Assembly: GCF_000517625.1 (NCBI RefSeq)
Contig: NZ_CP007056.1
Location: 372,001 to 436,000, forward strand
DNA from: Halostagnicola larsenii XH-48
Lineage (GTDB): Archaea; Halobacteriota; Halobacteria; Halobacteriales; Natrialbaceae
Direction: 5' to 3'
DNA: 64,000 nt
The number at the start of each line of letters is the position of its first letter. Position 1 is the stretch's first letter. The notes beneath the pieces are model-generated. The model saw only the letters and a list, made by a program, of their open reading frames with translations. It did not search any database and was not told the DNA's origin. The position numbers were made by a program, and so were the translations under genes. Below, piece by piece: positions 4,635 through 7,009 of the stretch.

Positions 4635-5307
4635 CTCCCGCGCCTGAAGACGCGGGAATCCCACGGTACCGCACCGCTGAGTTGGGATATTAGGGTTTGC
4701 AGTCTCCCACCGCTGTCCGAGGTCGGAATCCTCGGGAGAGGTCATGAAGGTAGACTTCGGGCTGTGCCAACCAGCCGGTACTCCTATCCTCGTCCAAACT
4801 GGACGCAGACTCGGAGTTACTTTCGTCGTTAATGTTGAGACGGATGTTCTCCGCCCCATTCACGTCAGCGTTGAACGCCGTATCACACGATTCACAGACG
4901 TACAGCCCACGTTCAACACGCTGACTATCATCTTCTCGACCGCACACACAACACGTCTTGCTCGTGTCGCGCTCAGATACTTCTACGACTTCAATACCCG
5001 CAACCTTCGCCTTGTACGTGAGAATCTTCGTGAAGCGGTCGAACGCCCAGCCGTGTAGGTCGAGATTACCGTGTCGCCCCCAGTTTTTTGACTCGCCGTT
5101 TTCGTCATCTCGAACACCAGCGAGTTTACCGATGTTGATTCGACCCACGTCACGCTCGATACACTTCTCTACGATGTGTTTGGCGAGACTGTGAAAGAAG
5201 TGGGTGCGGCGTTCCGACCACTTGTAATCGTTGATGATTGGACAAGTAAATTCCCCCGGTCTATTTATCGGGCCCTTCTTAACAATGGATCCGATTGGGG
5301 TTCGCAC
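4631..5307 (-). pseudogene. tnpB: TnpB, N-terminally truncated, with element right end
   Basis: A 205-codon frame (4690..5307) covers the C-terminal half of an IS1341-type TnpB. It has HFFHSLAKHIVEKC, then GESKNWGRHGNLDLHGWAF, the zinc finger CCVCGREDDSQ...CESC, and DVNGAENIR with the last catalytic Asp of the RuvC-like fold. Full-length relatives have about 400-430 residues, so the first half, including the first two catalytic acids, is missing. The hairpin end of the element (CCCGCGCCTGAAGACGCGGG, 4638-4657) lies downstream at its usual place. It interrupts the regulator stump on its left. Confidence 0.85.
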
Positions 5308-5752: not shown

Positions 5753-6385
5753 GGTGACTCCTCATCTACCTGTATTCCTGTAGACTGTTCCATAGCTCTT
5801 CAGACAATTATTCAGCAACCAGTTTCTAGGCATGTTCAGTGAGCCATAGTCGACTTACTCGTAGTAGACTGAAGACCCGAACAGTGCGACGGCGATGAGG
5901 AAACCGCATGGTTCCGGCAGCCGTGATCGGTGGTCAAGGACATCAGAAGGGGTGGCTGCGGTTTCCTGCTTGGGTCCTTGTTCGAGACAGTTGTCTTTGA
6001 GGGCACTGATAGGAGGAAAGCCTGCTAAGTCCCCACGAATGGATGGAAGACGTGGCAAAGGCTAACAACTAGACAGCGCGATAGAAGTGAAATTCACAGA
6101 AGAACGGAATCAGAGTTAGATTTCCAATAGGAATTAGTATATCAAACTGGCGAGAAGATTGATACCATTGCTCTCGAGAGTGAGATATGCGAACGGGAGG
6201 ATGGGGGGAATCTGTTGTTGCCAACAGATCGATGATCACCATATCGCCACTTCTTCCCGAACGCATCTTTCAGACACACGTTCCATCCCACTCAGACTCG
6301 AGTTCGTGCGTCCGACAGTTTATATAGGAAAGTGCGGCCAGACACCTCCATGTCCGGAGAATGAGACGATGATCTCCTGATCGCG
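5753..6385. other. Gene-poor stretch
   Basis: No convincing gene is seen here. The only structure found is the 11-bp-arm inverted repeat at 5898-5967, listed separately. The remaining sequence is AT-rich with no codon bias in any frame. Confidence 0.5.
5898..5967 (+). ncRNA. Candidate structured RNA element, copy 1
   Basis: AGGAAACCGCA at 5898-5908 pairs perfectly with TGCGGTTTCCT at 5957-5967. The interior holds GGCAGCCG and GGTGGTCAAGGACA. A second element 750 bp downstream shares the closing stem (GGAAACCGCA / GCGGTTTCC) and the internal GCAGCCG and GGTGTTCAAGG motifs in the same order and strand. No clear TATA box precedes this copy. The RNA assignment is inference from conserved structure, and a mobile-element remnant is an alternative. 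Confidence 0.35.
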
Positions 6386-6532
6386 GTGGCACTGACTCGA
6401 TTTTCCGTCCAGTTCGAAGGGGCAGATCTCGAGTTGAGCGAGTATGCATGGCAGTTAGCCGCTGACCGGCTCATTGAGTATGATGTAGAACCGTGTACTG
6501 CTATTGAGGAACTGCAGATCGGGGACCACTAG
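6386..6532 (+). CDS. Short ORF, possible remnant of a conserved haloarchaeal protein
   Basis: A 48-codon frame from GTG 6386 ends LSEYAWQLAADRLIEYDVEP, then EELQIGDH and a stop. The acidic, amphipathic composition resembles a genuine haloarchaeal small protein more than chance. The frame extends upstream to a stop at 6362 without an ATG, so this may be the 3' end of a truncated gene. No family is recognised. Confidence 0.35.
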   Translation: MALTRFSVQFEGADLELSEYAWQLAADRLIEYDVEPCTAIEELQIGDH

Positions 6533-6652
6533 TTGATGAATGAGTTTTCAGCAGAGCCAGAATCAGGTGCAGTCAGTACGAGGAACATGGTTCTGCTCTG
6601 TTTCTACCCGTTGGAACCCCAATAGTATAAGTGACTACCCGACAACAATCAA

Positions 6653-6735
6653 GATGGAAACCGCACTCCAAGCAGCCGCAGGGGGCATGCGCCGAAATGC
6701 CCCAGGTGTTCAAGGCACCTGAGGCGCGGTTTCCA
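6653..6735 (+). ncRNA. Candidate structured RNA, copy 2, with its own promoter
   Basis: TGGAAACCGC (6655-6664) pairs perfectly with GCGGTTTCCA (6726-6735). Inside, GGGGCAT pairs with ATGCCCC, and AGGTG-TTCAAGG-CACCT forms a 5-bp stem with a 7-nt loop like a tRNA T arm. A TATA-like TAGTATAAG at 6624-6632 lies about 25 bp before the first stem base, the right distance for transcription to begin at the structure. It is not a canonical tRNA because the T-arm-like hairpin is separated from the closing stem by five bases. A related element lies at 5898-5967. Confidence 0.45.
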
Positions 6736-6853
6736 ACCCACGAGGGTTCGAAACCATGTTTGCGTTGATTCTACCGAGATATAAACGTCTCGCACGACAG
6801 CCGTACCGCTATCAACTAGCTGGCGCGCCCAAAAAGCTGCGCTGGAGGGATCA

Positions 6854-7009
6854 ATGAGCGGCCAGTCACCGAACGAAGACGAGGGCAAACCGTCGTTTCT
6901 GCCGCGGTGTCCGCGGTGTGACACGCCGGTTACTCGGGTCACGAGCCGCGGGCCGATGGAGCATATCTGCTCGCCATGTGGCTGTCAGGTCGGTTCACCT
7001 GACCTCTAA
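6854..7009 (+). CDS. Small two-CxxC zinc-finger protein
   Basis: A 51-residue protein with a charged N-terminus and two metal-binding knuckles, CPRCDTPV near residue 19 and CSPCGC near residue 39, consistent with one zinc ion. Such tiny zinc-finger proteins are common in haloarchaea and several are regulatory, but no partner is visible here. The ATG at 6854 is chosen because it precedes the coding-like region, and the stop is the TAA at 7007-7009. Confidence 0.6.
   Translation: MSGQSPNEDEGKPSFLPRCPRCDTPVTRVTSRGPMEHICSPCGCQVGSPDL

Follow-up and report, generated by a model that had tools for sequence, protein, structure and literature searches.

Element 2, at 6655-6758 of the window (the whole stretch of 64,000 nucleotides from Halostagnicola larsenii XH-48 that was analysed), is the 5' leader of a gene pair and not a free-standing small RNA. 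We class the family to which it belongs as a cis-regulatory leader with riboswitch-like architecture and a putative ligand, and this family is apparently undescribed in Halobacteria. In the model that we propose here, the leader of this short polycistronic mRNA very probably operates as a two-state translational switch.

Element 2 is larger than first noted, and its fold stands at a z of -4.0 against shuffles. The RNA runs from a three-way junction (P1-P3) through a variable hairpin to the AUG (Table 1). The TATA box of the preliminary description is real and conserved in its spacing: the best TATA-like hexamer precedes model position 1 by 21-24 nt in 129 of 154 copies, P1 starts at position 10, and this fixed spacing places the predicted transcription start within a few nt of P1. 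P3 reads GGGUG/CACCC in most relatives, where the window copy carries a compensatory change of a G-C to an A-U pair. P4 varies in sequence among copies while its capacity to fold is retained, and P5 shows double-sided changes in three of its six pairs, one of which, for example, is A-U 36 times and G-C 29 times.

Table 1. Features of the two elements and of the genes downstream, in coordinates of the window
Feature	Position	Strand	Basis or remark
Element 1 inverted repeat	5898..5968	+	non-member of the element 2 family
TATA box (TAGTATAAGT)	6623..6632	+	read from sequence; centre about 27 nt upstream of P1
P1 5' arm, UGGAAACCGC	6655..6664	+	folding; covariation in 8/9 P1 pairs
P2 hairpin, GGGGCAU-GCGCCGAA-AUGCCCC	6682..6703	+	arms 6682-6688 / 6697-6703; double-sided changes in 4/7 pairs
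P3 hairpin, AGGUG-loop-CACCU	6704..6720	+	arms 6704-6708 / 6716-6720
P1 3' arm, GCGGUUUCCA	6726..6735	+	strand common to P1 and the predicted anti-start hairpin
P4 hairpin, AACCC-ACGA-GGGUU	6735..6748	+	folding; inner part of the predicted anti-start hairpin
Pre-start stretch GAAACC	6750..6755	+	abuts the AUG; complements GGUUUC (6728-6733) in the P1 3' arm
ORF1, 33 codons (MFALILPRYKRLARQPYRYQLAGAPKKLRWRDQ)	6756..6857	+	stop TGA overlaps the ORF2 start
P5 hairpin, CGAGA-UAUAAACG-UCUCG	6775..6792	+	within ORF1; Natrialbaceae-type copies
ORF2, 51-aa Cys-rich zinc-finger-like microprotein (CPRCD..CSPCGC)	6854..7009	+	weak sub-threshold Pfam zinc-ribbon matches

Relatives were collected with two models: R1, a covariance model from a 21-sequence alignment (A2), and R2, built with diverged relatives from other families. 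Compensatory base changes were abundant. Across 89 distinct sequences, 96.7% of cells were paired in an alignment whose fitting to the model favours the structure, and double-sided changes occurred in 16 of 27 pairs, a count that overstates independent events since the sequences are related. The covariation score was 0.273, as against 0.113 for shuffled and 0.025-0.072 for slid versions; none of 500 shuffles reached the observed value and no slid version came near it. Independently of model fitting, copies from other families have P1 arms of differing sequence that still match each other, namely GGAAGACCGGUGCC/GGCACCGGUCUUCC, GGGAAC-G-CCAGC/GCUGG-G-GUUCCC and GGAAAGCCG/CGGCUUUCC. CCGGGUG-loop-CACCCG forms a near-invariant core, and P3 also changes compensatorily in distant copies (L285, L286, L295 and L296). 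Wobble cells on the + strand comprised 140 G.U against 30 A.C, which argues that the constrained molecule is the + strand RNA. The family has a conserved and covarying structured domain in the 5' leader, as riboswitches do. Rfam 15 returned no family at the gathering threshold for element 2, the sole hit being a chance match to sR44 (E 7.5), and no prior description of the family was found in a literature search restricted to open-licence PMC papers. The earlier suggestion of an undescribed RNA family thus stands for element 2 only, with compensatory changes, no Rfam match and no description in the literature searched.

The preliminary description had joined element 2 to a second hairpin, element 1, as a related pair. 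Both inverted repeats exist, at 5898-5908/5957-5967 (an 11-bp perfect repeat) and 6655-6664/6726-6735, and GGAAACCGCA and GCGGTTTCC are common to the arms of both, but element 1 lies outside the family. Under the family model with filters off it scored 3.7 bits (+) and 7.6 bits (-), as compared to 162.5 bits for element 2. No full-length homologue of element 1 was found in its own genome (where it matched only itself), in the 125 genomes of the window's taxonomic family or on plasmids; other Natrialbaceae gave short matches, chiefly to 42 nt of the left flank, and the plasmids a single Streptomyces match ascribed to chance. Perfect 11-bp repeats with a loop of 20-80 nt number 6 in the window and 0-7 in its Markov shuffles; the repeat of element 1 is no more than chance expectation. 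The left flank (5860-5901) corresponds, in antisense, to a segment that codes for protein (LLIAVALTEFSVQYEAANPE...), a decayed fragment of a gene on the - strand, so that the left arm of element 1 is what this gene left behind. The reading of element 1 as another copy of the family was ruled out by its model score, the missing homologues and the chance-level repeat count. The internal words GCAGCCG and GGTG(G/T)TCAAGG, earlier taken as shared by the pair, turned out to be a coincidence, their positions being variable within the real family. The explanation that both hairpins are chance or unrelated repeats holds for element 1, but hundreds of covarying relatives exclude it for element 2, and as an account of both we regard its probability as negligible.

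Three other observations concern the neighbouring sequence. Decayed fragments of one haloarchaeal protein family (..LLIAVALTEFSVQYEAANPELAERAWQLAADRLLEHDVEP..) lie in opposite orientations at 5860-5901 (-) and about 6391-6530 (+). An unannotated 80-nt intergenic stretch at 5999-6079 recurs with 75-85% identity on plasmids of seven haloarchaeal genera and may be another RNA or a binding site. The ORF at 4690-5307 (-) resembles, by eye, what we take to be the C-terminal zinc-binding part of an IS200/605-type TnpB without the N-terminus.

R1 found matches in 77 of the 125 genomes of the window's family (23 of 29 genera), including 15 strong copies in the window's own genome. R2, at E<=1e-4 and with only seven candidates scored per genome, matched 161 of 391 genomes of the class Halobacteria (65 of 86 genera); the E-values of the family are rough because the calibration was short, and lone weak matches outside Natrialbaceae (E near 1e-5) are less certain. 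When 393 genomes were drawn phylum-wide, all 24 matches came from the order to which the window belongs, a distribution that speaks against random matching. Copies at E<=0.01 numbered 16 (own genome), 21, 29, 36, 24, 27, 29, 37, 18, 21, 8 and 20 in twelve genomes that were picked for many copies. The element 2 stretch itself is present in four copies of 88-100% identity in its own genome, and more copies occur on plasmids of Natrinema, Halopiger and Halomontanus. Carriage of the family by phages was considered and set aside: one of eight viral contigs with the core word matched the family model, and none of the annotated phages did. In one genome (G377, a g87 genome), many copies (L281, L305, L310 and others) are no more than a few hundred bases from the end of a contig, which suggests long near-identical repeats around the leaders.

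Multiple copies, some of them on plasmids, at contig ends (G377) or beside an integrase, might also be expected of a transposon end or of a hairpin acting in recombination at the DNA level. However, the conserved unit is promoter-leader-AUG, with flanks that differ between copies and no inverted partner seen; the promoter stands at a fixed distance and a start codon follows. G.U exceeds A.C by 140:30 on one strand, and the divergence of copies that have kept their pairing indicates old, selected paralogues. We consider a transposon end or recombination hairpin highly improbable.

The family leads into genes. The earlier statement that neither element is coding was right in that element 2 itself is a non-coding leader, but it ends at the AUG of a 33-codon ORF that overlaps a 51-codon zinc-finger ORF. 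Across the family ORF1 is usually 30-50 codons long. Among 152 distinct copies, 101 have its stop overlapping (A/GTGA) with the start of another ORF that encodes 35 aa or more, an arrangement seen in 56 of 518 antisense control ORFs. The second ORFs were rich in Cys pairs in 70 of the 101 coupled cases and in none of the 56 controls, for which the test was slightly stricter with one alternative motif omitted. ORF1 showed equal entropies at the three codon positions (0.95/0.95/0.96), hence no codon-position signature, and had no match in Pfam or NCBIfam; as a conserved protein it was rejected, and it was kept as a translated leader ORF only, its predicted translation resting on the stop-start overlap. 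The equal variability of codon positions, together with the presence of P5 inside ORF1, suggests that the role of ORF1 may lie in coupling and not in a peptide under selection.

ORF2 belongs to more than one type: short CPxC..PCGC proteins, as in the window, and proteins with HalOD1-like N-termini (below threshold in Pfam) and the same zinc motif. Copies in other families have Cys-rich proteins read straight from the AUG, the Haladaptatus examples of which are annotated as SWIM zinc-finger. At L221 and L290 (from about 1500 onward) the leader precedes an ORF and then a tyrosine recombinase, the L221 protein matching Pfam Phage_int_SAM_1; such copies may sit in mobile elements. At L291 and L294 the leader stands before two genes, with one protein shared between the loci (..DVFVRIQTDLLVIGDSIMTDRHHASNGNYEDNDPQNQIGG..). 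An assignment of the protein downstream of L294 as type IV CRISPR Cas7 (Csf2) was a guess without support, and neither it nor the supposed transposase downstream of the g87 copies had a Pfam match.

The preliminary description implied a free-standing small RNA or tRNA-like RNA, and the own promoter of element 2, its strong fold and the T-arm-like GGGTTCGAAACC stretch are in keeping with such a molecule. The T-arm-like hairpin is coincidental, being made of P4 and the pre-start stretch; its GTTCGA word is unconserved in other copies and ARAGORN finds no tRNA. Pairing and conservation, moreover, reach the AUG, after which come an open frame and a coupled gene. This explanation is improbable, and we retain the 5' leader as our reading of element 2.

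The segment next to the AUG carries the feature on which the proposed switch depends. In the window, GAAACC can pair with GGUUUC of the P1 3' arm, with P4 sitting between them. Pre-start stretch and P1 3' arm change together by subtype, as GAAACC/GGUUUC, GAAGCC/GGCUUC, GAAGACC/GGUCUUC and GAACCC/GGGUUC. Over 154 copies, the pre-start stretch had a mean contiguous Watson-Crick run of 5.0 with its own P1 3' region; runs of 5 or more occurred in 67% of copies and runs of 6 or more in 44%, whereas 5.5% of shuffled pre-starts reached 5. The match follows the subtype: with arms of their own subtype, GAAACC, AGACC and AACCC pre-starts gave runs of 6.0, 6.5 and 5.4, respectively. With arms of other subtypes the run was 2.1 for GAAACC (AAGCC-type arms), 2.1-3.2 for AGACC and 2.0-3.0 for AACCC, except that AACCC pre-starts reached 4.7 with GAAACC arms. 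Distant copies (L283, L289, L291 and L293) form 6-8 contiguous pairs from other sequences, for instance GCCUUCU/AGAAGGC (L283), GGUUGUC/GACAACC (L291) and GCUUCUUG/CAAGAAGC (L293). The matches in subtypes and distant copies thus indicate that three segments, the two arms of P1 and the pre-start stretch, co-change, as judged from some five to eight independent subtypes. In HalOD1-type copies (GGTTGCC pre-start) the outer match is limited to 3 bp (GGC/GCC), with inner pairs beyond a UU/UU internal loop, and the exclusive pairing is correspondingly weaker.

Since the P1 3' arm complements both the P1 5' arm and the pre-start stretch, P1 and an anti-start hairpin would compete. A base at -1 or -2 was paired in 124 of 140 copies with their own segments, as compared to 48 of 140 with shuffled ones, and swapping hairpin halves between copies changed the mean energy from -11.2 to -8.3 kcal/mol. 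The two states lie close together in predicted energy: calculated, like the swap energies, with standard 37 C parameters for hosts whose cells hold molar KCl, the values favoured P1 by a mean of 6.1 kcal/mol, with 74 of 152 copies within 6. P1 was predicted to be the more stable in 140 of 152 copies; state B, the anti-start hairpin, may therefore need help. Judged by sequence and thermodynamics, the leader would possess an alternative helix that extends to the start site and excludes P1, of the kind that serves as an expression platform.

The switch would work as follows. The transcript would begin a few nt upstream of P1. State A would have the two P1 arms paired, closing a three-way junction with P2 and P3, so that the sequence ahead of the AUG stays accessible. 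State B would instead pair the P1 3' arm with the stretch abutting the AUG and extend P4 into an anti-start hairpin over the initiation site, which in many Natrialbaceae copies would also cover the AUG. A signal recognised by the conserved P1-P2-P3 domain would tip the balance, and ORF1 and, via the stop-start overlap, the zinc microprotein of ORF2 would be translated or not according to the state. Because P1 would be the first to form during transcription, we would expect expression to be ON by default, except where the junction is destabilised or depends on a partner. The sequences show the family, its RNA-level structure, the promoter spacing, the mutually exclusive complementarity with its co-change across subtypes, and the arrangement of the genes, whereas the existence of the transcript, the lowering of translation in state B and the setting of the state by a ligand are inferred.

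As to the trigger, a small molecule or ion has a slightly better than even chance; it is our first choice because very different genes sit behind one conserved core. A protein, possibly the encoded zinc protein, is appreciably less likely, and temperature, salt or ribosome traffic is unlikely. The strongest competing explanation is autogenous control by the zinc protein. The P1-P2-P3 domain would then be the binding site of a protein, either the zinc microprotein encoded downstream or some other RNA-binding protein, with no small ligand involved. Most of the downstream genes do encode small Cys-rich proteins (CPxC..PCGC, SWIM, and HalOD1-like with zinc-finger), and the P3 stem is almost invariant in sequence, as a protein site would be. 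Yet several unrelated-looking protein types share the one RNA core, and behind some copies there is an integrase or no zinc protein, both of which a common ligand fits better. We therefore rate autogenous control as rather doubtful and keep a small molecule or ion as the favoured trigger.

The sole natural archaeal riboswitch determined experimentally as of 2021 was, according to a passage in PMC8241225, the fluoride riboswitch of Thermococcus kodakarensis, and the main text of a 104-motif survey contains no word beginning Halo or Natr (PMC2864571). ORF2 resembles the C(P)XCG zinc-finger microproteins of Haloferax volcanii in size and paired C(P)XC motifs, and the titles and abstracts of the two reports on those proteins mention no structured leader for their genes (PMC11241148, PMC6562870). 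With translational riboswitches that work by P1 strand exchange, the element 2 family has in common a P1-closed junction, a P1 strand that can alternatively pair at the translation start, and a place in the 5' leader right after the promoter. It differs from them in being outside the Rfam classes, archaeal, present in up to 37 copies per genome and a candidate with a putative ligand. Haloarchaeal translation initiation does not strictly need Shine-Dalgarno sites; the element 2 family would sequester the AUG-proximal region and not a Shine-Dalgarno site. Ribosomal-protein and other autogenous protein-binding leaders likewise place a structured leader ahead of the gene or genes expected under its control, whereas the element 2 family precedes small zinc proteins and its protein partner is only putative.

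We know of almost no cis-regulatory RNA switches in haloarchaea and, to our knowledge, the functions of small haloarchaeal zinc proteins are mostly unknown. It is possible, at a little under an even chance, that the family is a new archaeal ligand-sensing riboswitch class, which may be the most abundant in any archaeon, and that one signal acts through tens of paralogous leaders in a genome, which together control a battery of zinc microproteins and some mobile-element genes. At the level of single bases, the family yields predictions of how start sites in haloarchaea could be hidden or exposed, and it links as many as tens of gene pairs in a genome, mostly unannotated, to what would be one regulon of small zinc proteins.
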